DNA from: a virus
DNA length: 64,000 nucleotides
IMG/VR virus record: IMGVR_UViG_3300042484_002069
Location: 1 to 64,000 of that record
Reading direction: 5' to 3' (one strand)
Of the stretch, positions 19,130-54,306 are shown in pieces. Position 1 is the first letter of the stretch; each line of letters starts with the position of its first letter. The notes beneath the pieces were generated by a model that was not told where the DNA came from, did not search any database, and saw only the letters and a program-made list of their open reading frames with translations. Position numbers and translations under genes: made by a program.

Positions 19130-19405
19130 ATGGCTAACAAAATTCCGTTGGAGTATCTAGAATTAGATAACGATTTTGGTTTCACCGCAGTAAATGAAAA
19201 AGATGTTACTGAACCAATATTGGCAGAAGCCAAAACATCGGTAGATAGTGAAACCAAATTGAAGTTGCAGACTTTAGAAAAAATGGTTATGCCCCTTTTG
19301 GTTAATTTGATGAAGAATCCCGAAAAGGAGTACATACATTGGCCAAATCGAGTTCCTCTCATAGAGAAGCAAATTGAGCGTATTTTAGCTATAACTAGAG
19401 CTTGA
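19130..19405 (+). CDS. Conserved T4-like phage protein of unknown function
   Basis: 91 residues with LELDNDFGFTAV and LLVNLMKNPEKEYIHWPNR, a pattern recurring in aquatic T4-like phages. No catalytic motif is seen. Its TGA stop lies inside the -35 box of the following promoter. Confidence 0.6.
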   Translation: MANKIPLEYLELDNDFGFTAVNEKDVTEPILAEAKTSVDSETKLKLQTLEKMVMPLLVNLMKNPEKEYIHWPNRVPLIEKQIERILAITRA

Positions 19406-19430
19406 CAACTGATCCTTTAGGTGTTATAAT
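19402..19430 (+). promoter_or_regulatory. Sigma-70-type promoter of the metallopeptidase/VWA gene
   Basis: TTGACA (19402-19407), a 17-bp spacer and TATAAT (19425-19430) form a perfect host-type promoter. The -35 box contains the TGA stop of the gene before it. Confidence 0.88.
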
Positions 19431-19455
19431 ATAGAAAAGCCTAAAGGAGATACAT

Positions 19456-21666
19456 ATGATAACCGATTCTAAGTCTATATTAGCAAAACTTTTAGCATCA
19501 GAAAACATTCAAGTAGAACATAAGAAAACTTCTACCGCATACTTCGATACCAAAAATCGGGTCATGGTCATTCCTATTTGGAAGTCCATGACTCCGTTCT
19601 TATACGATTTGCTTCTAGGCCATGAGGTTGGGCATGCATTGTTTACCCCACCTGACGGCTGGCACGATCAAGTATTAGATGGTACCAAGAAGGGGTTCAA
19701 AACATATTTAAATGTTGTCGAAGACGCTCGCATCGAAAAATGTATTCAAGAAAAGTTTCCTGGGTTGAAGGTATCCTTTAAAAAGGGATATGCTGAACTA
19801 ATGCAAAAAGACTTTTTCGGAATTCAGAAAAATGAATGGGATATCAACACACTGCCTTTAATTGATCGTATCAATTTACACTATAAGGTCGGTTCATATT
19901 TAAACGTGCAATTCAAAGATGATGAACAATATTTTTTAAAACGAATTAATGGTATTAAAACGTGGGATGACGTTGTTTCTGTATCTAACGAATTGTATGA
20001 ATATGGTAAAACAGAACCAAAATTGCAAAATTTTGATGATGTCGATTATGTTGAGGATATGGATGATGATTTTGATTCGGAAGATGATACTTGGGAAGAA
20101 GTGGAATCTGATTCTGATTCCGATAAAAAGAGCAAAAAAACAAAAAATAGACGAGGATCGGATATTGGCGAGTTTGATCCAGAGTCAGTAACTGATAAAT
20201 TTTTTCGGCAAATGGAAAATCAACTTGTCGACGATTCAGTAAAGCCATACCTTTATGTCAATATGCCTGAGGTTGATATTAGTAAAGTCATTGTACCGTA
20301 TAAAACAATTCAGAAATTCTACACAAAATTTCGGTATCAAGATTATACACTTAATGTTGATACTTTGGATGCATTAGCAATTACACAATCAGAAAAAGCA
20401 AAAGAACATTTGTATAAAAAGTTCTTAGAATCGAATAAGAAATATATAGGTTATTTGGTTAAAGAATTTGAGCTTAAAAAGAATGCTAAACAATATGCAA
20501 GGGCATCTATTGCTAAAACTGGCAAATTGGATATGAAAAAAATTCATTCTTATAAGACTAATGATGATCTGTTTAAACGAATGACAATTGTCCCAGACGG
20601 TAAATCTCATGGGTTATTGATGTTCGTAGATTATTCTGGGTCTATGGGTGAAAGTATTCAAGCAACAATTGAGCAAACCCTAGTTTTGGTAATGTTCTGC
20701 AGAAAAGTAAATATTCCATTTCGTGTATATGCATTCACTGATCTACAGAATGATTCAATTAATATTGAACTAGGTATGGAAACTCCAAATACAGAGGACC
20801 CGGCTACATATTTTAGAGCTCGTAGTGTGAATGGATTGGGTAGATTTTCAAAACGAGTAAATGATTTGCATGTTGATGATGTTGCATTCAGATTACGCGA
20901 ATATGTATCAAGCGAAATGAATTCAAATGATTTTAAAGATGCAGTTAAATATTGGTTGCTTGTGGGAGAATTGATGACTTCTCGGTATAACCATAGGGGT
21001 AGCACAAATCCTGCGGTTAGTGTACATTTAAGAAATTCAGAATTTGAACAATTGAATGGCACCCCTTTGAATGAAGCCATTATTTCTGCAATCGATATTA
21101 CGGAAGCTTTTAGAAAACAATATAAATTGGATGTCGTCAATACAGTATTTTTAACCGACGGCGATTCAAACGATACGGGGGCAGTATATAAAGAAAATGA
21201 TAAATATCTCAATTACTACGATAAGTATGGGAATAATTGTAATGTCATTATTCGGCACACTAAGACTATGCTGGAAGGTAAGAAAATTCCTAATGCGGAA
21301 TTAACTACTGGTTTGCTAGATTTACTGAAAAAAGTATCCGGTGCAAATACAATTGGTTTTTTTATTGCTCCTAGATTTGGAAGGAACGTTGTTATGAACA
21401 GAATTAGTAAAACGGGTAAATACGTTCAGAATTTTGATCAGCAATATAAAACGGCAAAACAACAGAAATTCTTCATGTTAAATGATGTTGGATATGATGA
21501 TTTCTATATTATTCCTGGTGGAAAAGATTTGGAAATCACTGAAGATAATTTGGTTGTTTCGGCAGGAGCCAAAAAGACAGAGATTAAAAACGCATTTATG
21601 AAAATGCAAAAAAGCAAATCTATTAATCGAGTTCTTTTGAGTAGATTCGTTAGTAAAATTGCTTGA
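19456..21666 (+). CDS. Metallopeptidase/VWA protein (CobT-like)
   Basis: A 736-residue protein. Near residue 55 it has a zinc-peptidase motif, GHEVGHALFTPP (HExxH), then an acidic linker around residues 200-225, and a C-terminal von Willebrand A domain with MIDAS MFVDYSGSMGES and later FLTDGDSNDTG. VWA proteins of this type pair with MoxR/CobS ATPases, and one follows directly. In cyanophages the pair is often labelled CobT/CobS; cobalamin synthesis is not supported here. Its TGA lies in the next promoter. Confidence 0.8.
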   Translation: MITDSKSILAKLLASENIQVEHKKTSTAYFDTKNRVMVIPIWKSMTPFLYDLLLGHEVGHALFTPPDGWHDQVLDGTKKGFKTYLNVVEDARIEKCIQEKFPGLKVSFKKGYAELMQKDFFGIQKNEWDINTLPLIDRINLHYKVGSYLNVQFKDDEQYFLKRINGIKTWDDVVSVSNELYEYGKTEPKLQNFDDVDYVEDMDDDFDSEDDTWEEVESDSDSDKKSKKTKNRRGSDIGEFDPESVTDKFFRQMENQLVDDSVKPYLYVNMPEVDISKVIVPYKTIQKFYTKFRYQDYTLNVDTLDALAITQSEKAKEHLYKKFLESNKKYIGYLVKEFELKKNAKQYARASIAKTGKLDMKKIHSYKTNDDLFKRMTIVPDGKSHGLLMFVDYSGSMGESIQATIEQTLVLVMFCRKVNIPFRVYAFTDLQNDSINIELGMETPNTEDPATYFRARSVNGLGRFSKRVNDLHVDDVAFRLREYVSSEMNSNDFKDAVKYWLLVGELMTSRYNHRGSTNPAVSVHLRNSEFEQLNGTPLNEAIISAIDITEAFRKQYKLDVVNTVFLTDGDSNDTGAVYKENDKYLNYYDKYGNNCNVIIRHTKTMLEGKKIPNAELTTGLLDLLKKVSGANTIGFFIAPRFGRNVVMNRISKTGKYVQNFDQQYKTAKQQKFFMLNDVGYDDFYIIPGGKDLEITEDNLVVSAGAKKTEIKNAFMKMQKSKSINRVLLSRFVSKIA

Positions 21667-21691
21667 CAAGAATTGCAATAGGTGTTATAAT
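21663..21691 (+). promoter_or_regulatory. Sigma-70-type promoter of the MoxR/CobS-like ATPase gene
   Basis: TTGACA (21663-21668), 17-bp spacer, TATAAT (21686-21691). The TGA stop of the upstream gene is part of the -35 box. Confidence 0.88.
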
Positions 21692-21724
21692 ATGATGTAG
21701 CTTTTAACTTTTGAGGATTATATT

Positions 21725-22996
21725 ATGTCTAGAACGCATTACAGTGAGCAGCAACGTACCGAATTAGTTATTAAATTAGAAGAAGAATATGGTAGCAAAG
21801 TATCTAAAGATGAAATTTTAGAATTTTGCGATATGCGAAATTTGCCGAATCCGCATTTTTTAGTTTCTCGAAAAGATATTAAGGTCAATAAAGTATATGA
21901 CCTTAGTCTATTAAATTCTTCGACTATTAGCGATCCTTATATGAATGATACACCGATTGTAGCGCCCACCCCATCCGCACAAATTTTGCCTTTGAAGCAA
22001 CGTAAAATGGTTTCAGAGATTGATAACTCTGTGCCAGCAAAAGATAATACGTATGTCCCGTTTGGCTTTTTTAAGCAACTGGAACAAATTTTAAAATCAA
22101 GAACATTTTATCCGGTCTTTATTACTGGTCTATCGGGTAATGGCAAGACTACGATGGTCGAACAAGTGTGCGCAAAACTTGGGCGAGATTGTATTCGGGT
22201 AAATGTTAGTATCGAAACAGATGAAGAAGATCTAATCGGTGGTAATACATTGCTAGATGGCAATGTTGTTTATCGTGAAGGGCCGGTACTAATGGCTATG
22301 CGCCGCGGCGCAGTTCTTTTGATCGATGAAATTGATCGAGGTTCAAATAAACTAATGTGTATGCAAAGTATTCTTGAGGGCAAGCCATTGTTCAATAAGA
22401 AAACTGGCGAGATGATTTATCCCGCGGCAGGATTTACTGTAGTTGCTACCGCAAATACTAAGGGTCGAGGCACAGACGATGGTCGCTTTATTGCAGCACA
22501 AATTTTGGACGAGGCATTTCTTGAACGCTTCCCTATTACGGTAGAACAAGAGTATCCGTCGACTACTGTTGAACGAAAAATTCTGCAAAATAAAATGGAA
22601 TTTTTTGGTAAAGTTGATTCTGAATTTTCTGAGAAACTTATTACGTGGGCAGACATTATTCGTAAGACTTTTCTTGAGGGCGGCGTAGATGAAATTATCA
22701 GCACTCGCCGATTGGTAAATATCGTGCAGGCGTACTCAATTTTTAACAATCAAGAAGATGCGATTCAATATTGCATTAATCGATTCGACGATGATACTAA
22801 GTCCGCATTTATGGATTTGTATCAAAAAATGAGCAATCCGTTGCGTCAGGAAACTACTTCGGAAACAGTATACGATGATACTAAGTCCGCATTTATGGAT
22901 TTGTATCAAAAAATGAGCAATCCGTTGCGTCAGGAAACTACTTCGGAAACAGTATACGATGACGGCGAACCTCTTATTAGTAGTCCACAAATTTAA
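21725..22996 (+). CDS. MoxR/CobS-like AAA+ ATPase with C-terminal tandem duplication
   Basis: A 423-residue AAA+ protein. Walker A is GLSGNGKTTM, followed by VNVSIETDEEDLIGG, Walker B AVLLIDEIDRG and a sensor region VATANTKGRGTDDGRF. It resembles the ATPase called CobS in cyanophages and would act with the adjacent VWA/peptidase protein as a remodelling machine. The last part holds two identical 28-residue copies (DDTKSAFMDLYQ...SETVY) from an 84-bp tandem duplication. Confidence 0.85.
   Translation: MSRTHYSEQQRTELVIKLEEEYGSKVSKDEILEFCDMRNLPNPHFLVSRKDIKVNKVYDLSLLNSSTISDPYMNDTPIVAPTPSAQILPLKQRKMVSEIDNSVPAKDNTYVPFGFFKQLEQILKSRTFYPVFITGLSGNGKTTMVEQVCAKLGRDCIRVNVSIETDEEDLIGGNTLLDGNVVYREGPVLMAMRRGAVLLIDEIDRGSNKLMCMQSILEGKPLFNKKTGEMIYPAAGFTVVATANTKGRGTDDGRFIAAQILDEAFLERFPITVEQEYPSTTVERKILQNKMEFFGKVDSEFSEKLITWADIIRKTFLEGGVDEIISTRRLVNIVQAYSIFNNQEDAIQYCINRFDDDTKSAFMDLYQKMSNPLRQETTSETVYDDTKSAFMDLYQKMSNPLRQETTSETVYDDGEPLISSPQI
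22790..22957 (+). repeat. Exact 84-bp tandem duplication
   Basis: Copies at 22790-22873 and 22874-22957 are identical base for base and in frame, and the sequence after the second copy restarts with gatga. The unit encodes 28 residues of the AAA+ ATPase C-terminus. Confidence 0.97.
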
Positions 22997-34781: not shown

Positions 34782-35218
34782 GTTTATTCGGTAAGCCGGT
34801 CGAAAAAATTGAGGAAGTTCCTTATAAGTCTCCCGCAATATCTCCCTTTGATTTTATTAATTCTATACATTATTCTAAACAAAACTTAATAGTAGATGAA
34901 TGGTCTGAAAAACAATATAATCCCTTTATTATAAACAAAGGATTATCCTATGGACATGATACCGTTATTCCCGCAAATGAGATGAATTCCCGTCCTCATT
35001 TGGATAAAATTCTTCAATTTCACTTTCTCATAAATATTGTTAGACCTAGAAAAAGATTCAATAAATGGATAAAGGTCGATAAAATCGATGAATTGGAAGT
35101 TGTAAAAGAATACTATGGCTATAGCACAGAAAAAGCCAAACAAGTACTCCCCCTTCTCAATGAGTCGATTCTTGATAAAATGAAGAAAAGCTTAACAAGG
35201 GGTGGTAAGAATGAGTAA
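34778..35218 (+). CDS. 62: Clamp loader small subunit gp62
   Basis: 146 residues. SPFDFINSIHYSKQNLIVDE and YNPFIINKGLSYGHDTV match T4 gp62, as does the position between gp44 and regA. It binds gp44 to complete the clamp loader. It overlaps regA by 8 bases. Confidence 0.85.
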   Translation: MSLFGKPVEKIEEVPYKSPAISPFDFINSIHYSKQNLIVDEWSEKQYNPFIINKGLSYGHDTVIPANEMNSRPHLDKILQFHFLINIVRPRKRFNKWIKVDKIDELEVVKEYYGYSTEKAKQVLPLLNESILDKMKKSLTRGGKNE

Positions 35219-35645
35219 TGACATCATTTCAATAAATTTTCCGGGATATAATCCGTTAGAAGTAATTTTAACTGAACCCGATGATTTTCTTAAGGTAAGG
35301 GAGACCTTAACTCGAATAGGAGTAGCGTCGAGAAAAGATAAAACACTATATCAATCATGCCACATATTGCACAAGCAAGGTAGATATTTTATTGTACATT
35401 TTAAAGAGTTATTTGCATTAGATGGAAAGGTTGCAGATCTCTCTGAAAATGACCTGCAACGAAGAAATACTATTGCCAAATTGCTAGTGGATTGGGGATT
35501 GGTAGAAATTAGCAATCCTCACAATTTTGTAAATTACGCCCCTCTTTCTCAAATAAAGGTTATATCGCATAAAGAGAAAGATGATTGGACATTAGAAACA
35601 AAGTATAACATTGGCAAGAAAAAGATGCCAATGGGATATAAATAA
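35211..35645 (+). CDS. regA: RegA translational repressor
   Basis: 144 residues. DDFLKVRETLTRIGVASRKD, LYQSCHILHKQGRYFIVHF and VDWGLVEI match T4 RegA, which binds early mRNAs at start regions to block translation. Start ATG 35211 is chosen because aagggg lies about 8 bases upstream; an in-frame GTG exists at 35202. Its stop overlaps a late-promoter octamer. Confidence 0.92.
   Translation: MSNDIISINFPGYNPLEVILTEPDDFLKVRETLTRIGVASRKDKTLYQSCHILHKQGRYFIVHFKELFALDGKVADLSENDLQRRNTIAKLLVDWGLVEISNPHNFVNYAPLSQIKVISHKEKDDWTLETKYNIGKKKMPMGYK
35637..35644 (+). promoter_or_regulatory. T4-type late promoter upstream of pqqA
   Basis: Exact TATAAATA overlapping the regA stop codon, 117 bp before the pqqA start. 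It is the only recognisable promoter in the gap and suggests late expression of pqqA. Confidence 0.6.
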
Positions 35646-35760
35646 TATTTTAGATGTAAAATATATTTTACACATTGATCTCACATTGAATTTTTGCTGC
35701 AGCATCTTCAATAAACTGATCTGTATCAGCAGTACTTTTTATTAAAACTAGGAGAAAAAT

Positions 35761-35832
35761 ATGTGGACAACACCATCAGCAATTGATTTGCGTTTCGGGT
35801 TCGAAATCACAATGTACATTGCAAATAGGTAA
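35761..35832 (+). CDS. pqqA: PqqA, PQQ precursor peptide
   Basis: A 23-residue open frame from ATG to TAA with aggag seven bases upstream. It starts MWTTP and ends DLRFGFEITMYIANR, the conserved body of bacterial PqqA. Glu15 and Tyr19 are in the E-x-x-x-Y arrangement that PqqE cross-links to build pyrroloquinoline quinone. Length is typical (22-24). No pqqB-E gene is in the window, so the peptide would rely on host enzymes. Stated family facts are general knowledge; the phage role is inferred. Confidence 0.93.
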   Translation: MWTTPSAIDLRFGFEITMYIANR

Positions 35833-35962
35833 TACCGCTTTCCTCGGGATGGGAACGTAAAGACTTCACCTTAGGACCGCTTTGGTACGGAGCGTGAATT
35901 AAGCTGGCACAACGATAGGGTGTCCCTGTATTCAGTAAGCAGGATAGCTATGCCTTCGGGGT
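35833..35962 (+). ncRNA. Candidate structured RNA downstream of pqqA
   Basis: Non-coding stretch of about 130 bases, richer in G+C than its surroundings, between pqqA and its terminator. Visible pairings are TTCA/TGAA enclosing CGCT/AGCG, AGGG/CCCT with loop TGT, and CCG/CGG pairs that repeat. I do not recognise an RNA family. It may be the 3' UTR of pqqA or a separate RNA. Confidence 0.4.
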
Positions 35963-35977
35963 AGCACTTTTTTTTAA
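35949..35977 (+). terminator. Rho-independent terminator after pqqA
   Basis: GCTA..CC / GG..TAGC around a stable TTCG tetraloop, followed by a run of eight or more T. It closes the pqqA transcription unit ahead of the 35998 gene. Confidence 0.85.
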
Positions 35978-35997
35978 CTCGCTTAATAGGAGCACAT

Positions 35998-36294
35998 ATG
36001 ATTACAGCCGATATTTTTATCGACACAGTTCAAAACGGCAAACGCCAATTCATTTCTAAATATGTAACGGATAAAGACCTTGCAAAACCACTTAATGATT
36101 TTGTGGATGCGCAAACTGTATTCTCGCATGCAGTAGTTTCTTCAGTAAAAGAATCTTTTGGTCATCTAAATAAAAAAATAACTCAAAGCAAAATTGAAGA
36201 AGTAATCAATCCATTTAATATTGACTGGGTTCAGGCCGGTATGAAAGCCTGGTTAGATCAACCGGCAACTAAAGCTAAACCGTTTAAGGAGTAA
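35998..36294 (+). CDS. Conserved small phage protein
   Basis: 98 residues, helical, beginning ITADIFIDTVQNGKRQFISK and containing PLNDFVDAQTVFSHA. Its shape recalls phasin-like helical proteins that sit before hsp20 in aquatic T4-like phages, but no motif fixes a function. It has an aggag site and is separated from hsp20 by 3 bases. Confidence 0.55.
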   Translation: MITADIFIDTVQNGKRQFISKYVTDKDLAKPLNDFVDAQTVFSHAVVSSVKESFGHLNKKITQSKIEEVINPFNIDWVQAGMKAWLDQPATKAKPFKE

Positions 36295-36297
36295 CAT

Positions 36298-36819
36298 ATG
36301 GCAACTCCTGCTTTTAGTAATTTTATCTTTGGCCCAGCGTATAAGGATGTTGAGAAATTCTTTGTCGGATATGATCAACAATTTGATCGCATGGCAAAAT
36401 TTCATGATGATCTAGCAAAAAACGTACCAAACTATCCTCCGTATAACATTAAGAAAACGGGTGAGAATACATACGCTATTGAATTAGCAGTCGCCGGATT
36501 TGGTAAACAGGATATTGAGATTGAATTTGCAGATGATGTATTAGTTGTTAAGGGGAATACTTCCGAAGACAACAGCGATTATTTGTTCAAAGGAATCGCC
36601 GCACGTAATTTTACACGTACATTCGCCTTGAATGAGCAAATTGAAATTAAAGATGCGGAACTTTTTAATGGTATGCTAAAAATAATACTAGAGCGTATTA
36701 TACCTGAGCATAAAAAACCAAAAAAAATTGAAGTGAAAGATACAAGTGAAATTGTTTCTGCTACAGGAAAAAAGTCTAAGAAAGAATTGTTATTAGAGGA
36801 TACTAATGCAATTGATTAA
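36298..36819 (+). CDS. hsp20: Small heat shock protein Hsp20
   Basis: 173 residues with an alpha-crystallin domain: YPPYNIKKTGENTYAIELAV, IEIEFADDVLVVKGN and the late GMLKIILERIIPEHKKPKKI. Hsp20 is a core gene of cyanophage-type T4-like phages, thought to guard folding of virion or host proteins. It overlaps the next small gene by 14 bases. Confidence 0.92.
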   Translation: MATPAFSNFIFGPAYKDVEKFFVGYDQQFDRMAKFHDDLAKNVPNYPPYNIKKTGENTYAIELAVAGFGKQDIEIEFADDVLVVKGNTSEDNSDYLFKGIAARNFTRTFALNEQIEIKDAELFNGMLKIILERIIPEHKKPKKIEVKDTSEIVSATGKKSKKELLLEDTNAID

Positions 36820-39941: not shown

Positions 39942-42437
39942 ATGAAGTTCTACACTAGTGTGAATCAGTATGGTAATAATATTTTGGTTCGGGGTATTAA
40001 CAATGGAAAGCGGGTTCAGGATAGAATTCCGTTTAAGCCGAAACTATTTGTCAAATCTAAAAATGAAGCAAAGTATAAATCGCTGTATGGGCAGAACTTA
40101 GAACCGGTTCAATTTGATAGTATTAATGATGCAAAAGACTACGTAAGTAAATATAAAGAAGTAGAAAATTTTCCGATATTTGGTAACACTAACTACGGTT
40201 ATCAGTATATTACGGAAAACTTCTCGGATGAAATTGAATTCGATATAAGTCAAATTAAAATCTGGTCATTGGATATTGAAACTTCCGCCGAATTGGGATT
40301 TCCTGATGTTGCAAATCCCCAAGAACAGTTGTTAGTTATCACAACTCAAGATGCAAATACTAAAGAACTGATGTCCTTTGGTCTACACGACTATGTAGTT
40401 AAATCAGAAAAACACACGTATATTAAATGTAAAGACGAAGTAGATTTATTGAAAAAATTTGTAGACTATGTTGCAGCAGATCATCCGCATATTATTACAG
40501 GTTGGAATGTAGAATTTTTTGATATCCCATATCTATGTAACCGTATTACTCGAATTTTAGGAGAAGATTATGTGAAACGTCTTTCACCCTGGAAAGTTGT
40601 TAAAGAAAAAAATATTATTAAACTGAAGAAAGAAAATATTTCGTTTGAATTGTTGGGTATTGCGATTTTAGATTACCTTGATCTGTATAAAAAGTTTACT
40701 TATACCAATCAGGAATCATACAAATTAGATCATATCGCAAAAGTAGAACTGGGTAAAGAGAAGTTATCGTATGATGAATTTTCGTCATTTACTGAATTCT
40801 ACAAAAATGATTGGCAAAAATTTGTAGAGTATAACATTCGAGATGTTGAACTGGTAGATGAGCTTGAAGAAAAGATGAAATTAATTGAACTCATCTTAAC
40901 AATGGCGTATGATGCAAAGTGTAACTATATTGATATTTTCTCTGCAGTAAGAACATGGGATTGTATTCTTTATAATGAACTATGGAAGAAAAATATTGTT
41001 GTTCATCAACGGCAGGAAAAAACAGGAAGAAGTATTGCTGGTGCGTATGTACAAGAACCTAGACCAGGTAAGTATAACTGGGTAGTATCGTTTGATGCGA
41101 CAAGTCTGTATCCTAGTATTATTATGCAATATAATATGTCACCTGAGACTTTGGTAAGTACATATCCTAAATTTTATGATGTACAAATGAAGACGTTGCT
41201 AAATGGTACAGCCGACTTGTCTGAGCTAGAAGATAAAAAGTATTGTATGACGGCAAATGGAAGGTGCTTTACGAAGGAAAAACAGGGAGTATTCCCGGCA
41301 ATTGTTCAGAAGCTATTTGACGATCGAACTAAGTATAAGAAACTTATGCTTGAGGCACAATCTCAATACGAGGTAACTAAGAATAAACATTGGCAAAAAG
41401 AGATATCCAAATATAATAATTTTCAGATGGCTCGTAAGATTCAGATGAATTCTTTGTTTGGTGCAATGGCAAATGAATATTTTAGATTCTATGATGACCA
41501 TATTGCGGAAGGCATTACCCTTACGGGGCAATATATTATTCAAAAAGTTGGCAAAGCATTGGACGACTATTTAAATAAAATTTGTGGTACTAAAGATTTT
41601 AACTATTCTTTTTATTCAGATACAGACTCCTGTTACATAACATTAGATCCGCTAGTACAAAAGTATTATAAAGATCACTCATCTGAGAAAATTGTAGAAT
41701 TACTTGATAAAATCTGCGAAGATAAAATTCAGGAAGTACTTAATAAAGTATGCAATGAAATTTCAGGATACACGCATGCGTTTGATACTAAGATTAATTT
41801 TAAGCGAGAAGCAATTGCCGAAACTGGCGTATGGGTTGCAAAGAAGCGATATGCACTAAATGTTTCTAATAATGAGGGTGTACAATATAAAGAACCGAAA
41901 TTAAAGGTTATGGGTCTGGAGATTGTTAGATCATCTACGCCTGAACCTGTACGAGATGCTCTACGAGGCGCGGTTAAATTAATTTTAACTAAAGATGAGG
42001 AAGTAGTGCAGAAATATATTATGGATTTTGAGAAAGAATATAAACAACATGCTCCAGAATTAATTGCATTTCCTCGGGGTGTGAATGGTCTCGGAAAATA
42101 CTCCGACAGATCAAATATATATAAGCATGCGACACCCATGCACGTCCGTGGCGCACTTCTTTATAATTTCTATCTTGACAAGTTTGATCTTGGTAAAAAA
42201 TATGAACGTATAAAGGAAGGGGATAAGATCAAATTTATTTACCTCAAAGAACCCAATACTATAGGTGAAAATTGTATAGCATTTAATACTGTTATACCTT
42301 CTGAAATGGATTTAAAGAAATATTCAGATTATGATTTGATGTTTCAGAAATCTTTCCTAGAACCTTTAACCACAATTTTAAATGGTATTGGTTGGACCGC
42401 AAAACCACAAGCAACGCTAGAAGGATTATTTGGATGA
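39942..42437 (+). CDS. 43: DNA polymerase gp43 (family B)
   Basis: 831 residues. The 3'-5' exonuclease has SLDIETSAE, GWNVEFFDIPYL and YNIRDVELVDEL, and the polymerase has FDATSLYPSIIMQ, RKIQMNSLFGAMANEY and YSDTDSCY. The C-terminal clamp-binding tail ends LEGLFG. Replicates the phage genome with gp45, gp44 and gp62. ATGA overlap with the nuclease gene downstream. Confidence 0.97.
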   Translation: MKFYTSVNQYGNNILVRGINNGKRVQDRIPFKPKLFVKSKNEAKYKSLYGQNLEPVQFDSINDAKDYVSKYKEVENFPIFGNTNYGYQYITENFSDEIEFDISQIKIWSLDIETSAELGFPDVANPQEQLLVITTQDANTKELMSFGLHDYVVKSEKHTYIKCKDEVDLLKKFVDYVAADHPHIITGWNVEFFDIPYLCNRITRILGEDYVKRLSPWKVVKEKNIIKLKKENISFELLGIAILDYLDLYKKFTYTNQESYKLDHIAKVELGKEKLSYDEFSSFTEFYKNDWQKFVEYNIRDVELVDELEEKMKLIELILTMAYDAKCNYIDIFSAVRTWDCILYNELWKKNIVVHQRQEKTGRSIAGAYVQEPRPGKYNWVVSFDATSLYPSIIMQYNMSPETLVSTYPKFYDVQMKTLLNGTADLSELEDKKYCMTANGRCFTKEKQGVFPAIVQKLFDDRTKYKKLMLEAQSQYEVTKNKHWQKEISKYNNFQMARKIQMNSLFGAMANEYFRFYDDHIAEGITLTGQYIIQKVGKALDDYLNKICGTKDFNYSFYSDTDSCYITLDPLVQKYYKDHSSEKIVELLDKICEDKIQEVLNKVCNEISGYTHAFDTKINFKREAIAETGVWVAKKRYALNVSNNEGVQYKEPKLKVMGLEIVRSSTPEPVRDALRGAVKLILTKDEEVVQKYIMDFEKEYKQHAPELIAFPRGVNGLGKYSDRSNIYKHATPMHVRGALLYNFYLDKFDLGKKYERIKEGDKIKFIYLKEPNTIGENCIAFNTVIPSEMDLKKYSDYDLMFQKSFLEPLTTILNGIGWTAKPQATLEGLFG

Positions 42438-49860: not shown

Positions 49861-49935
49861 GGTCTTAAAGTGTTCACGGACGCACATATGTCTGTCACGC
49901 ATAAAGAAGGGGATCGTTACCCCTTGAGACCGCCA
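49861..49935 (+). tRNA. tRNA-Asp (GTC)
   Basis: Acceptor GGTCTTA/TGAGACC, discriminator G and encoded CCA. D stem GTGT/GCAC, anticodon arm TATGT CTGTCAC GCATA, T stem AGGGG/CCCCT. The T loop ATCGTTA departs from TTCRANN and the variable loop is four bases, so folding is slightly unusual. Confidence 0.82.
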
Positions 49936-49966
49936 ATTTTAAATAGTTGTATATAAAGTTTTTAAA

Positions 49967-50050
49967 GCGGAAGTGATGTAATGGTAGCCATGCGGGTCTT
50001 AGAAGCCCGTGCCGAAAGGCGTGAGAGTTCGAGTCTCTCCTCCCGCACCA
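49967..50050 (+). tRNA. tRNA-Leu (TAG)
   Basis: Class II tRNA with acceptor GCGGAAG/CTCCCGC (one mismatch), anticodon arm CGGGT CTTAGAA GCCCG, long variable arm GCCGAAAGGC, T arm GAGAG TTCGAGT CTCTC, A73 and CCA. Confidence 0.9.
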
Positions 50051-50055
50051 AACAC

Positions 50056-50130
50056 CTGGCGTTAGTACAACGGATAGTACAGGGGATTTCTACTCCCTCG
50101 ATGTGGGTTCGATTCCTGCACGCCGGACCA
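50056..50130 (+). tRNA. tRNA-Arg (TCT)
   Basis: Acceptor CTGGCGT/ACGCCGG, anticodon arm GGGGA TTTCTAC TCCCT, TTCGATT T loop, A73 and encoded CCA. Reads AGA/AGG, which suits an AT-rich phage. Confidence 0.92.
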
Positions 50131-50151
50131 AATTATTGATTAGGAGATATT

Positions 50152-50373
50152 ATGAGTAATAAGGTTAAAGCTGTTAAACGTACTGCTGTAATATTTGCAA
50201 TTATTGTATCTGTACTTTTATTGCTTGTTGGATTTTTTGCAGAAGCGTCTGCTCAATTTGTAGCATGGACAATCATTATTGGAATAACCGCGTTTTACTT
50301 TTGGTTAGTATATTCTGTTATTTTGAATCAAATAAATTATAGCGATAGTATAAAAGACAAAGAAGTTGAATAG
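50152..50373 (+). CDS. Small two-segment membrane protein
   Basis: 73 residues. After a basic start (NKVKAVKRT) come AVIFAIIVSVLLLLVGFF and AWTIIIGITAFYFWLVYSV. Lies between tRNA genes with aggag 7 bases upstream. Function unknown. Confidence 0.65.
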   Translation: MSNKVKAVKRTAVIFAIIVSVLLLLVGFFAEASAQFVAWTIIIGITAFYFWLVYSVILNQINYSDSIKDKEVE

Positions 50374-50378
50374 TATAA

Positions 50379-50415
50379 GGAGTATGGTGTAGGTTAAATC
50401 CTACATCCTCCACCA
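50379..50415 (+). pseudogene. tRNA minihelix relic (acceptor plus T arm)
   Basis: GGAGTAT pairs with ATCCTCC (6 of 7), then GTAGG/CCTAC forms a T-like stem around TTAAAT, and A plus encoded CCA ends it. D and anticodon arms are absent: two bases connect acceptor to T arm. It looks like a deleted tRNA, or a natural 37-nt minihelix. Confidence 0.6.
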
Positions 50416-50422
50416 AAATATA

Positions 50423-50514
50423 CTCCGGTAGTGTAATGGTAGCACGACGAGATTTATAACCTCGATTCGCTAGATAGGCGGTTAGAGAAGGTTCGAGTCC
50501 TTCCCGGAGTACCA
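50423..50514 (+). tRNA. Class II tRNA with positional anticodon TAT
   Basis: Acceptor ACTCCGG/CCGGAGT, D arm GTG/CAC, anticodon arm CGAGA TTTATAA CCTCG (A-C mismatch next to the loop), T arm GAAGG TTCGAGT CCTTC, A73 and CCA. The variable region is about 22 bases with CGC/GCG pairing. By position the anticodon is TAT (Ile AUA), yet a long variable arm is typical of Leu, Ser or Tyr, so identity is unresolved. Confidence 0.75.
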
Positions 50515-50530
50515 AATTAGAAGGTAATAA

Positions 50531-50740
50531 ATGTTTAAAGTATATTGGACTGATCATCAGGACATGTCGTATGGCAAACAATTTGAAAAAATGACAGAGG
50601 CTTTGAAGTTTACACAGGATCTACGTAACGTGTATCAGCGTAAATTTGTTACCATGGTAAGTGAGAACCCTGACTGCACTAGTCTATTGGGTGTGAGCGA
50701 AGTTAATGCTGATTATGATTTTAAAAAACGCAGAACCTAA
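50531..50740 (+). CDS. Small hypothetical protein
   Basis: 69 residues: FKVYWTDHQDMSYGKQFEKM, TEALKFTQDLRN and VSEVNADYDFKKRRT. It recalls small phage proteins between tRNAs, with no catalytic motif. Its end overlaps the minus-strand dnaJ-like gene by 4 bases. Confidence 0.55.
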   Translation: MFKVYWTDHQDMSYGKQFEKMTEALKFTQDLRNVYQRKFVTMVSENPDCTSLLGVSEVNADYDFKKRRT

Positions 50741-51306
50741 CTTATTGCTACTAATTCTTCAAGGCCATAAAAATAGTCTTTAAGTATTTCCAATTCAAGA
50801 TTACAAATTTTAATACGTGTATTAAAATCTTCAAATTCCTGTTTACGTTGTTTTATTTGAAGTTGAACAACATCTAACAGTATATTGCGATTTTTATTTT
50901 TCGAATTTATCCTACGTATAACTTTTTCTAGTTGTAATATATATTGCTCACATACTATAATATTGTTAGCCATATCAACTTTAATTTGATTAATTTGGCC
51001 AACCATAATAGTAATTAGATCATCGTTTTCGGGATTAAAATTCGGAACAATTGCATGTAACATTTGTGTGATATGATCTAATGCCGATTGTTTAATATTT
51101 TGATTTGAATCCGCTTCACCTAATAGATCATATTCTTTTCTGCGAATAGGATCAATCAGAATTTCGTATGCTAATTTTATGCGTTTGAATACTTCCTCGT
51201 CCCCACCTTTGTCGGGATGATGAATTTGCGCTAAAGATCTAAATTTGAGTTTTATCTCATCTTCAGACGCATCAATTGATATTTCTAATTCTATATATGG
51301 ATTCAT
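50737..51306 (-). CDS. DnaJ-domain protein
   Basis: 189 residues from ATG at 51306 (a longer open frame upstream has no support). The N-terminal J domain has HHPDKGGDEEVFKRIKLAYE, including the HPD tripeptide needed to stimulate Hsp70. The rest is coiled-coil-like (INSKNKNRNILLDVVQLQIK). It is the only minus-strand gene in the tRNA region and might redirect host DnaK. Confidence 0.85.
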   Translation of the reverse strand: MNPYIELEISIDASEDEIKLKFRSLAQIHHPDKGGDEEVFKRIKLAYEILIDPIRRKEYDLLGEADSNQNIKQSALDHITQMLHAIVPNFNPENDDLITIMVGQINQIKVDMANNIIVCEQYILQLEKVIRRINSKNKNRNILLDVVQLQIKQRKQEFEDFNTRIKICNLELEILKDYFYGLEELVAIS

Positions 51307-51340
51307 GTTAAATATTTTTAAGTATTTATTAGGAGTTAGA

Positions 51341-52261
51341 ATGATATTTGCAACAACCAAGTCTCGCTGGTGTAGTGGCAGCACAGCAGTCTCCAAAACT
51401 GTTAGTCGCGGTTCGATTCCGTGGCGGGGCGCCATAGTTTTATTCACATCTTTAATTTTATGTTGTGCCAGTGCATACGCTAAACCGCACAAACATATTA
51501 AAAAGAAAAGAATGATTCGTACAGATACTACGAGTGTTCTAGTATTCAATGATACTACAAATACACATGAGTATAATAAGAATGCAAATAAAGTTAGGCC
51601 TTTTGCAAGTGTTACTAAATTAATGACAGCAATGGTATCGTTAGATAGTGATAAAGATTTATCTAAAGTGATGCAAATTAATTCGAATGTCGGCGGATCA
51701 TTACCTAGAAAAAAGAATTTTACCAGATACGAAATTCTAAGTGCTATGCTAGTTAAAAGTGATAATTCCGCGGCAGAGACTTTGGCTAATGCATATCCCG
51801 GCGGAAGAAGAATGTTCATAGCACAAATGAATCGAAAAGCTTTAGAGTTTGGTATGATTAGTAGTTCTTTTGACGATCCCTCCGGTATAAGTGCTAACAA
51901 TCAAGCAACTGCTATAGATATAGGAACAATGGTTGCAAAAGCTGCATCATATCCTATTATACGTGAGATTAGCACAAAGAAACAAATTGAAATTGAAACA
52001 AGTTATAAGAAGAAAATTAGAACAATTACGTTAAACAATACAAATAGACCAGTATTATTTGAGTTTAACACCATTGTTGTTAGTAAAACAGGATTTACTA
52101 GCCATGCGGGATATTGTCTGGCTTTAGCAGTAGAACGGCATGGTCAAATGTATTCTGTCGTAATACTTGGAGCCAAAGACAAATATGACAGAATACGCAA
52201 AGTAGAAGATATTATGTATAATCATATCATAGATAGGCGTAAAAAAGAGCTTGACGCCTAG
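51341..52261 (+). CDS. DD-carboxypeptidase/endopeptidase-like penicillin-binding protein (S11)
   Basis: 306 residues. Catalytic motifs are SVTK (Ser90, Lys93), SDN (Ser140) and KTG (249-251), as in S11 D-alanyl-D-alanine peptidases. A hydrophobic segment IVLFTSLILCCASAYA looks like a signal peptide, so it would act in the periplasm. ATG 51341 follows aggag, but the first 31 codons read through tRNA-Trp. An alternative start after the tRNA would need a rare codon. It ends just inside the next promoter. Confidence 0.78.
   Translation: MIFATTKSRWCSGSTAVSKTVSRGSIPWRGAIVLFTSLILCCASAYAKPHKHIKKKRMIRTDTTSVLVFNDTTNTHEYNKNANKVRPFASVTKLMTAMVSLDSDKDLSKVMQINSNVGGSLPRKKNFTRYEILSAMLVKSDNSAAETLANAYPGGRRMFIAQMNRKALEFGMISSSFDDPSGISANNQATAIDIGTMVAKAASYPIIREISTKKQIEIETSYKKKIRTITLNNTNRPVLFEFNTIVVSKTGFTSHAGYCLALAVERHGQMYSVVILGAKDKYDRIRKVEDIMYNHIIDRRKKELDA
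51361..51434 (+). tRNA. tRNA-Trp (CCA)
   Basis: Acceptor GTCTCGC/GCGGGGC with G-T pairs, G73, encoded CCA, anticodon arm GCAGT CTCCAAA ACTGT and T arm CGCGG TTCGATT CCGTG. It lies inside the first codons of the DD-peptidase reading frame. Confidence 0.92.
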
Positions 52262-52279
52262 CGAAAAAGGTGTTATAAT
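52251..52279 (+). promoter_or_regulatory. Sigma-70-type promoter of YkuK-like gene
   Basis: TTGACG (52251-52256), 17-bp spacer, TATAAT (52274-52279), overlapping the end of the DD-peptidase gene. Confidence 0.83.
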
Positions 52280-52303
52280 TATATTAGACTCTCCTAAAAG
52301 ACA

Positions 52304-52777
52304 ATGATGAAGCGATTAGATATCCAAGAAGTTAAAGCATTTATAGATATGCAAACACAGGAGACTAAAATCTATCTGGGAGCAGACTCTGAAAGATATA
52401 AACGTAACGGTAAATGGTATGCGGATTATACTATAGCAGTAGTAATACACATCGATGGGTGCCATGGATGTAAAATTTTTGGTGAAGTTCAAACAGAAAT
52501 AGACTACGACGCTAAAAGTAGCAAACCTTCACTTCGTTTGATGAATGAAGTATATAAGGTAGCAGAATTGTATCAAAAACTCATTGACGTAATTTGTGAT
52601 CGACACGTAGAAATTCATTTAGATATTAATCCAAATGAAAAGCATAATAGCAACATCGTAATACAACAAGCAATAGGATACATTAAAGGTATGTGTAATG
52701 TGATTCCGTTGGTAAAACCTAATGCGTTTGCTGCATCATATGCAGCAGATAGATTAAAGTCTGTACTGGCGGTATAA
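52304..52777 (+). CDS. YkuK-type RNase H-like protein (DUF458)
   Basis: 157 residues. IYLGADSERY, the repeated-Asp style HLDINPNEKHNSNIV and FAASYAADRL match the YkuK/DUF458 family, which has an RNase H-like fold. In phages it may act on RNA primers or hybrids; not shown. It ends just before tRNA-Thr. Confidence 0.78.
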   Translation: MMKRLDIQEVKAFIDMQTQETKIYLGADSERYKRNGKWYADYTIAVVIHIDGCHGCKIFGEVQTEIDYDAKSSKPSLRLMNEVYKVAELYQKLIDVICDRHVEIHLDINPNEKHNSNIVIQQAIGYIKGMCNVIPLVKPNAFAASYAADRLKSVLAV

Positions 52778-52782
52778 TATAC

Positions 52783-52856
52783 GCCCCCTTAGTTAAATGG
52801 TATAACAGTTGATTTGTAATCATCAATTGGCAGTTCGATTCTGTCAGGGGGCACCA
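52783..52856 (+). tRNA. tRNA-Thr (TGT)
   Basis: Acceptor GCCCCCT/AGGGGGC, D arm GTT/AAC, loop TTTGTAA, T loop TTCGATT, A73 and encoded CCA. The anticodon stem has one T-T mismatch. Confidence 0.9.
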
Positions 52857-52870
52857 TTTGGGAGATAAAT

Positions 52871-53101
52871 ATGGGATTAGTAGAAGCAGGAACTTTTTTG
52901 GGAGCAACAATTCTTTTTGGTTTGGGAATTGCAGTCATTGGTGTTGTGGTTATTTTTCTAAATAACATAATCCATAAATTCTGGAAACCTTTGAATTGGT
53001 TTAAATTTTTAGATTTCAATGACACAAAAATGTACCCTGTTCGTGTCCATAAAGAACCTACATTTGATGATATCAAACCAACTAAGACTAATAAGGAGTA
53101 A
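52871..53101 (+). CDS. Single-pass membrane protein
   Basis: 76 residues with LGATILFGLGIAVIGVVVIFL as membrane span, followed by NNIIHKFWKPLNWFKFLDF and a polar tail. ggag upstream of ATG 52871. Function unknown. Confidence 0.6.
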   Translation: MGLVEAGTFLGATILFGLGIAVIGVVVIFLNNIIHKFWKPLNWFKFLDFNDTKMYPVRVHKEPTFDDIKPTKTNKE

Positions 53102-53103
53102 CT

Positions 53104-53256
53104 ATGGAAAAGACTTTACTAAAAGAAGATGGACCTAAGTGTGGATGTGGTCGTAGTCCGTCGGGGTATTGTATTGGTTGGCATAATTTATCTGAAGAAG
53201 CATATGCGGATAAACTAGAACAGTATAAAAAAGATACTGGCGAGTATAATAAGTAA
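53104..53256 (+). CDS. Small CDGSH-like metal-binding protein
   Basis: 50 residues. KCGCGRSPSGYCIGWH has Cys-x-Cys, Ser, Cys and His nearly spaced as in CDGSH [2Fe-2S] proteins, with one residue fewer before the third Cys. A small zinc or iron site is possible. The ATG follows aaggag. Confidence 0.6.
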   Translation: MEKTLLKEDGPKCGCGRSPSGYCIGWHNLSEEAYADKLEQYKKDTGEYNK

Positions 53257-53261
53257 GATTT

Positions 53262-53335
53262 GCGGGGTTGTCATATTGGTTGTGTCCTAGCCTTCCAAGC
53301 TAGTCAAAGGAGTTCGATTCTCCTACCCCGCTCCA
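53262..53335 (+). tRNA. tRNA-Gly (TCC)
   Basis: Acceptor GCGGGGT/ACCCCGC, T73, anticodon arm CTAGC CTTCCAA GCTAG, TTCGATT T loop, encoded CCA. U73 agrees with glycine identity. Confidence 0.93.
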
Positions 53336-53339
53336 GTTT

Positions 53340-53615
53340 ATGAGAAAACAAAAAGACGAATCATATGAGAATTGGTCAGAGAGAGTTCGTCTTTTTGAAT
53401 ATGACATTGCGATCAAACAAATATCTACAGGGATAGATGTGGAAATTGTTTTAGAATCCATGTCAAAAAGAATACAAGTAAAATTGTTACATTTTTTACT
53501 AAAAGAAATTAATGAAAACGTAAAAATATATTATGATCCAATTACTTCAAAGAACCGATATGAAGAAACGTATTTACGGCGGACTAAACCTGCTGATCAT
53601 ATTTTGGATAACTAA
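53340..53615 (+). CDS. Protein resembling the glutamyl-tRNA reductase dimerisation region
   Basis: 91 residues. YDIAIKQISTGIDVEIVLES and MSKRIQVKLLHFLLKEI parallel the C-terminal helices of HemA (pattern NKLLH). The catalytic and NADPH domains are missing, so it is not an enzyme. It might mimic or bind host HemA, or it may be an unrelated helical protein. Confidence 0.5.
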   Translation: MRKQKDESYENWSERVRLFEYDIAIKQISTGIDVEIVLESMSKRIQVKLLHFLLKEINENVKIYYDPITSKNRYEETYLRRTKPADHILDN

Positions 53616-53618
53616 TGC

Positions 53619-53647
53619 TTGACAATTTTAGTAGAATGTTATATAAT
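53619..53647 (+). promoter_or_regulatory. Sigma-70-type promoter of tRNA-Leu and rubrerythrin gene
   Basis: TTGACA (53619-53624), 17-bp spacer, TATAAT (53642-53647), 17 bases before tRNA-Leu. Confidence 0.88.
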
Positions 53648-53663
53648 ATGTTTATTAATTAAT

Positions 53664-53747
53664 GCCCGGGTGGTGAAATGGTAGACACAAGAGACTTAAA
53701 ATCTCTCGCCGAAAGGTGTGCCGGTTCGAGTCCGGCTCCGGGTACCA
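53664..53747 (+). tRNA. tRNA-Leu (TAA)
   Basis: Class II: acceptor GCCCGGG/TCCGGGT-type with wobble ends, anticodon arm GAGA CTTAAAA TCTC, long variable arm GCCGAAAGGTG, T arm GCCGG TTCGAGT CCGGC, A73, CCA. Confidence 0.93.
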
Positions 53748-53770
53748 TTTTTATATGTTAGGAGATTGAG

Positions 53771-54214
53771 ATGAGTAATATGAGCGTAAAAGGAACTAAA
53801 ACTGAGGAATGTCTGAAGGATGCATTTGCTGGAGAATCAAAGGCAAATCGTCGATATCTATATTTTGCAAACATGGCAGATATTGCAGGCGCACAAGACG
53901 TAGCTAGTGTTTTTCGTCATACTGCAGAAGGCGAAACCGGGCATGCGCATGGGCACATGGAATATCTAGTTAATGGAGGATCGGGCGATCCCGAAACAGG
54001 GTTGCCCGCAACTAATATTATTGAAGCGCTTGAATCTGCCATCTCAGGCGAGACTCATGAATATACGGATATGTATCCTGGTATGGCAAAGACTGCTCGA
54101 GATGAGGGGTTTGAAGAAATTTCAGATTGGTTTGAAACTTTGGCAAAAGCTGAACGTAGTCACGCTGGCAAATTTAAGCGTACACTTGATGCGTACAAAG
54201 CAGAAATTAATTAA
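53771..54214 (+). CDS. Rubrerythrin-like diiron protein
   Basis: 147 residues. Four-helix ferritin-like pattern: [19 protein letters not shown] (first Glu), [13 protein letters not shown] (ExxH), [15 protein letters not shown] and [13 protein letters not shown] (ExxH). It lacks the C-terminal rubredoxin domain of classic rubrerythrin, so it may be a single-domain peroxide-scavenging diiron protein. An aggag site precedes it. Role in infection not known; oxidative protection is inference. Confidence 0.85.
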
Positions 54215-54227
54215 GTAGAAGGTTTTA

Positions 54228-54306
<79 letters not shown>

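Follow-up and report, generated by a model that had tools for sequence, protein, structure and literature searches.

Organization of the pqqA locus

The window, that is, the whole stretch of 64,000 nucleotides analysed from IMG/VR record IMGVR_UViG_3300042484_002069, comes on the evidence of its proteins from a T4-like phage of aquatic bacteria, distant from any isolate; two replication/recombination proteins match those of Melnitz and of cyanophages at about 51% and 50%, respectively. The genes around the locus run in the order gp44, a 94-aa ORF, gp62, regA, pqqA, a 98-aa ORF (orf98) and hsp20, with gp43 farther to the right (Table 1); the genes called gp44 and gp62 here are presumably these two, going by the gene order of T4. 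A homologue annotated as regA also adjoins hsp20 in S-PM2, S-RSM4 and P-HM1, and most of the listed phage records that match hsp20 are annotated as Hsp20 or heat shock protein.

As the original prediction had it, pqqA is a complete gene with an AGGAG ribosome site, and its peptide of about 23 residues contains the Glu-x3-Tyr cross-link pair as Glu15 and Tyr19. Its identity is borne out by two curated PqqA models, PF08042 of Pfam (40.8 bits, cut-off 21.1, E = 2.1e-10) and TIGR02107 (38.8 bits, cut-off 20, E = 5.5e-10), both exceeded about twofold; profile comparison thus confirms that a genuine PqqA is encoded. No second PqqA was found in the 66,666-base IMG/VR record of the window, and an identical gene lies on a second contig, IMGVR_UViG_3300002835_003007 (L114), a duplicate contig of the same phage. 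Among the best 80 of at least 600 RegA relatives, only this duplicate carries pqqA, so the gene is dispensable for most T4-like phages.

The predicted late-type promoter is present upstream as the octamer TATAAATA. This octamer is not enriched in the window, where it occurs 7 times against 14.9 expected by chance. In relatives without pqqA (L264–L267), TATAAATA is followed within about 10 bases by a GC-rich element starting CCCCGGGATGGGAA; in the window, about 190 nt including pqqA are inserted between the two. The left side of the inserted segment holds a palindrome, TGTAAAATATATTTTACA; its final four bases already belong to the pqqA leader, and it may be an operator. A minus-strand coding fragment upstream of pqqA (IKSTADTDQFIEDAAAKIQCEINV) was rejected as a gene, as it had no phage match and its best host match reflected DNA conservation of the leader.

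Elsewhere in the window, a perfect 84-bp tandem duplication (28 codons) lies inside a long ORF at 22788–22955, either an assembly artefact or a recent duplication. Two similar 33-nt sequences containing TTGACA and TATAAT-like hexamers stand just before gene starts at 19400–19432 and 21661–21693 and are likely duplicated early promoters. Nine tRNA genes are clustered at 49861–54306.

Table 1 Features around pqqA, in window positions
Feature	Position	Strand	Remarks
regA-type translational repressor gene, left neighbour	35202..35645	+	at least 600 relatives
T4-type late promoter-like octamer TATAAATA	35637..35644	+	
18-nt perfect palindrome TGTAAAATATATTTTACA	35655..35672	.	self-match; left side of inserted segment
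Structured pqqA leader RNA	35669..35760	+	covariance models, covariation
AGGAG Shine-Dalgarno of pqqA	35750..35754	+	
pqqA	35761..35832	+	23 codons, peptide MWTTPSAIDLRFGFEITMYIANR
Ancestral GC-rich element upstream of orf98/hsp20	35840..35966	+	hairpin 35946–35966 at its end
ROSE-like hairpin CUC-G-CU/AG-GAG hiding the orf98 ribosome site	35978..35992	+	
98-aa ORF (orf98), right neighbour	35998..36294	+	partial homologues in L264–L268
Hsp20-type small heat shock gene	36298..36819	+	495 phage records match
gp43 DNA polymerase, right border of pqqA hotspot	39942..42437	+	about 50% identity, full length, to cyanophage DNA polymerases

The downstream element and a ROSE-like hairpin belong to the neighbouring genes

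A strong terminator of pqqA had also been proposed. The region in question (35833–35975) lies between the late octamer and orf98/hsp20 and is kept in relatives without pqqA, its hairpin is weak (−9 kcal/mol), and a terminator scan gave this hairpin no score. Because the octamer and the element adjoin in pqqA-free relatives, the supposed terminator predates pqqA here and belongs to the downstream genes, being part of an older hsp20 leader. As to a moron cassette with its own promoter and terminator, both the late octamer and the downstream element occur in relatives without the insertion. The GC-rich element itself, about 110 nt of extra sequence between the late promoter and the hsp20 leader, is conserved in L264–L267, L035, L048, L099 and L258.

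Upstream of hsp20 in T4-like cyano-, pelagi- and methylophages (L263–L350), a hairpin lies over the ribosome site and carries a bulged G and UYGCU, a motif typical of ROSE thermometers (PMC3669281). A strict ROSE-like form was present in 53 of 74 distinct hsp20 upstream regions; among control genes it was found before 1 of 69, and among shuffles in 2.5%. The hairpin shows compensatory pair changes (CUC/GAG, GAC/GUC, GUC/GAC, CAC/GUG). We regard a ROSE-like RNA thermometer before hsp20 or orf98 as a candidate element of T4-like phages. It resembles the known ROSE-like thermometers (PMC3669281) in that UYGCU faces the ribosome site upstream of a small heat shock gene, and in the layout of hairpin I and hairpin II (35946–35992); unlike them, it resides in T4-like phages, is known here from sequence, and is a neighbour of pqqA lying outside it. 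The folding energies of 35700–35985 and 35833–35975 were no better than those of shuffles, so folding energy alone would have missed both RNA elements.

The pqqA leader is a conserved structured RNA shared with host genomes

About 90 nt before the window pqqA align with the pqqA leaders of marine Methylophilaceae (pairwise score 64; the best of 300 shuffles scored 38). The leader structure has a helix between UCUC and the ribosome site, an inner arm in two parts and a further hairpin; in the window, TCTC (35679–35682) pairs with GAGA of the ribosome site (35752–35755), and ATTGAA (35685–35690) with TTCAAT (35707–35712). A host-only covariance model, built from ten host leaders with the window left out, matched the window leader with E = 1.2e-5 and other viral pqqA leaders as well, each ending at the pqqA start; a joint model matched the window leader with E = 2.1e-10. 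By covariance model, 11 of 100 Methylophilaceae genomes contain the leader, all 11 of them 1.1–1.4 Mb in size, and in those of the 11 that were examined it stands before the first of two tandem pqqA copies.

A search with a leader-core pattern matched 117 viral contigs. In 112 of these the core precedes pqqA (intact in 101, split in 11), and the contig breaks off in the remaining 5. In none of the 117 was the core seen to be followed by another gene. The intact genes start 27–58 nt downstream of the core. Pairing on 28 distinct rows amounted to 96.7% of cells (83.1% in shuffles, at most 54.1% when slid), and on 63 phage rows 249 cells had changed on both sides (94 when shuffled, at most 42 when slid), both alignments having been fitted to the model. 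A check on unfitted letters was therefore added, in which all 17 distinct arm pairs were complementary at two free positions, compared with a mean of 4.3 in shuffles.

Searches of the window stretch and the host leaders returned no Rfam family at the leader positions, and we regard the leader as a candidate for a new regulatory RNA. Its layout suggests translational control. It is possible, though we hold this only tentatively and below even odds, that the leader is a new riboswitch class that senses PQQ, a PQQ intermediate or a related signal, controls PqqA translation, and was taken over together with the gene by marine and freshwater phages; PQQ itself as the ligand is a guess. Model matches in L023, L103 and L150 were taken as chance, those in L023 and L103 not being beside pqqA. 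A 72-kb viral contig (L051) carries pqqA, a weak match to the leader that stops 3 nt short of the gene, and a 628-aa PQQ dehydrogenase-like ORF; it resembles the Baikal type.

pqqA is widespread in phages, selected at the peptide level and, in T4-like phages, fixed in one genomic site

The original prediction proposed a search of other phages, and this revealed pqqA well beyond the window. A six-frame search of annotated phages found the gene, unannotated, in P19250A, Venkman, MEP301, MEP401/402 and four Melnitz strains; these isolates are five methylophage lineages with pqqA. It was also found in phage ctXG6705, from Manatee Spring. A degenerate-pattern search recovered pqqA in at least 120 viral IMG/VR contigs, and nearly all of those listed have a clear purine-rich ribosome site before the start. 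The gene is viral rather than host contamination, since it is flanked by regA and hsp20/gp43 and is also present in complete isolate genomes. Matches in "Acinetobacter phage MD-2021a" were rejected as bacterial contigs with pqqABCDE; one record under this name (L008, CAKLQF020000010.1) contains bacterial ppk and pqqABCDE and looks like a mislabelled bacterial contig. The viral PqqA of two further records (L023, L070) is of a divergent type, IRLGMEITAYV[FM][NT]R; it may come from phages that infect other hosts.

The first degenerate pattern required Glu and Tyr, so that residue invariance from that scan was circular and was not used. A second scan left residues 15–23 free, for an independent test of the two residues, and all 126 matches retained Glu15, Tyr19 and the exact 9-residue tail followed by a stop; conservation of the cross-link pair in related phages, on which the prediction depended, thus holds throughout this sample. 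Across 115 distinct viral pqqA DNAs, codon positions 1, 2 and 3 differ by 0.13, 0.09 and 0.39, respectively. Since differences concentrate at third positions and Glu15, Tyr19 and the tail are kept, phage pqqA is, by its codon pattern, under purifying selection for the whole peptide.

The leader-bearing contigs also share a genomic site. T4-like markers were recognised on 82 of the 117; without exception, these 82 have the cassette on the same strand and, wherever regA or gp43 is present to judge by, to the right of regA and to the left of gp43. In non-T4 phages, pqqA frequently lies antisense to the genes on either side (43 of 118). That pqqA is merely a selfish passenger, a host gene caught by chance and unused, would fit a small, intergenic and patchily distributed gene; however, it recurs in unrelated phage types and is under purifying selection, and we give this reading very little credence.

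In 11 contigs (L404, L411, L425, L427, L435, L461, L469, L471, L474, L483, L484) pqqA is interrupted inside the Phe14 codon by an insert, 231–278 nt long where both ends are seen and without a large ORF. Rfam assigned 2 of 6 scanned inserts to group I introns (95.8 and 70 bits), and the other four show the same sequence hallmarks by eye at scores below the gathering threshold. Exon 2 is intact in 9 of the 11 contigs and was not resolved in the other two; the split genes are presumably spliced. Introns in a gene of 23 codons are unusual and imply that pqqA is a conserved target. These split genes also bear on whether the RNA, rather than the peptide, is the active product. In that case the leader and short ORF would either function as a small RNA or soak up, as a sponge, the ligand or protein that binds the leader. 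The strongly conserved leader structure and an ORF of only 72 nt would suit such a role. Yet most of the phage pqqA copies sampled first keep the peptide although no leader of this type can be recognised before them, the codon pattern indicates selection on protein, and both exons are intact in 9 of the 11 split contigs (the other two as above), which makes an RNA product very unlikely.

Phages carry the substrate without the enzymes

We examined 50 whole pqqA-bearing viral records, of which six are isolate or complete phage genomes and many others fragments. None of the 50 encodes a PqqE above the family cut-off, and one encodes a PQQ-dependent dehydrogenase, both absences being firm only for the complete genomes. 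Three viral records gave weak matches to the PqqE model that fall well short of the cut-off and probably represent other radical-SAM proteins.

Host genomes show a comparable imbalance between substrate and enzyme. Each of 40 host genomes has 1–12 pqqA copies, and the 35 with PqqE over the cut-off have one copy, except one genome with two. The complete LSUCC0665 chromosome contains three pqqA copies, all far from pqqE. A previous study reported 3–12 pqqA copies in Methylophilaceae, with the other pqq genes (pqqBCDE) typically single (PMC4109929). In Gluconobacter, overexpression of single genes including pqqA raised PQQ, according to a passage of PMC7936290 that cites this work. Hosts appear to raise substrate dosage through gene copies, and phages to add one more.

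The proposal that the phage supplies only the substrate gains independent support from the lack of PqqE in the 50 records, the near-absence of PQQ dehydrogenase, host amplification of pqqA without pqqE, and purifying selection. It is the best reading, because Methylophilaceae carry up to 12 pqqA but usually one pqqE. Two considerations weigh against it: PqqE or PqqB, rather than PqqA, may limit PQQ in the infected cell, and PQQ is stable and shared, so that a benefit within one lytic cycle is not obvious.

As the phage copy keeps the residues known to be recognised by PqqD/PqqE and no downstream enzyme is encoded, the peptide could instead be a decoy that occupies PqqD/PqqE, blocks PQQ synthesis and shuts methanol oxidation down, the alternative offered in the original prediction. 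A decoy, however, should lose or change the cross-link residues or the tail, which all sampled copies keep, and host genomes themselves add extra copies of the same peptide; we consider this role highly improbable.

Host of the window phage

Comparison with host pqqA genes, also proposed at the outset, gave a divided answer. The leader belongs to the type seen in Methylophilaceae with small genomes, in keeping with a methylotroph, whereas the peptide and DNA are closest to pqqA of Oxalobacteraceae/Burkholderiales (83% nucleotide identity, L149); the peptide, of type DLRFGFEITMYIANR, has its counterparts in Oxalobacteraceae, Derxia and Ferrovum-labelled MAGs. The host of the window phage is therefore uncertain. 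The peptide and DNA matches would fit a non-methylotrophic Burkholderiales host, in which PqqA would serve PQQ-dependent alcohol or sugar dehydrogenases instead of methanol dehydrogenase. Against this, viral peptides with a similar YIANR tail bear the Methylophilaceae-type leader too, as does the window, and we consider a Burkholderiales host rather unlikely, if worth keeping in view. A methylotroph host is favoured, though not firmly.

A model of substrate supply during infection

Phage pqqA is a real, conserved and selected gene, carried as substrate only, with a host-type leader and in a fixed genomic niche. We infer that it is expressed, that its peptide is processed, that PQQ rises as a result, and that the leader responds to a signal. 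Taken together, we put at roughly 75% the probability that the window encodes a functional PqqA derived from a PQQ-making host, most likely a Methylophilaceae methylotroph, which comes with its host leader and supplies substrate during infection.

According to this model, pqqA and its cis-regulatory leader RNA would have been acquired together from a PQQ-making host. Late in infection, the phage transcript would yield extra PqqA, host PqqD/PqqE would cross-link Glu15 to Tyr19 of the phage peptide, and host PqqB/C and proteases would complete PQQ. PQQ is a vitamin-like cofactor and each molecule made uses up one PqqA, so the added substrate could keep PQQ-dependent dehydrogenases charged (in methylotrophs, the lanthanide methanol dehydrogenase XoxF) and thereby keep respiration running for virion production. 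By pairing with the ribosome site, the leader may place PqqA synthesis under the control of a signal already in use in the host. xoxF is the most abundant transcript in OM43 (PMC5120137).

Since related viruses widely carry the pair of pqqA and leader, our data suggest that many viruses may feed their hosts' methanol-burning machinery by supplying PqqA alone; PQQ metabolism feeds methanol oxidation in lakes and coastal seas. What is new here is the widespread, mostly unannotated, substrate-only pqqA of methylophages, including cultured ones, whose presence makes the substrate-supply idea testable in existing phage–host pairs. The leader transferred with the gene is a structured RNA with good support and no Rfam entry, and offers a concrete riboswitch candidate for PQQ metabolism. 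If the riboswitch reading is true, the virus would use an RNA sensor of its host to meter how much precursor of a host cofactor is supplied.

Comparison with known viral and host pqqA

The existence of viral pqqA is already known (PMC7678222, PMC13188868). In the open-access literature we found no earlier report of how widespread it is, of its occurrence as substrate only, of the shared leader, of its fixed locus or of the introns, and phage pqqA goes unmentioned in the open-access papers on Melnitz, Venkman, MEP301 and MEP401/402. The available text on reservoir sediment viruses (PMC13188868) likewise places PQQ genes on viral contigs, listing pqqA, pqqE and pqqD; it reads them as phosphate solubilisation and describes no leader or genomic site.

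As a stand-alone gene of the same peptide family, the window copy resembles the orphan pqqA of Methylophilaceae (PMC4109929), and it shares its leader with the first copy of OM43-type tandem pqqA pairs in hosts. Unlike those orphan genes (PMC4109929), it resides on a T4-like phage, behind a late promoter-like octamer and beside regA. The closest viral parallel is Lake Baikal, where pqqA on viruses of freshwater methylotrophs (VP_266/VP_139) was likewise read as an auxiliary metabolic gene (PMC7678222). That report concerned one virus population that also encodes methanol dehydrogenase, whereas 49 of the 50 records here are without a PQQ dehydrogenase, and in contrast to the Baikal case the gene is traced here to cultured phages and accompanied by a structured leader.
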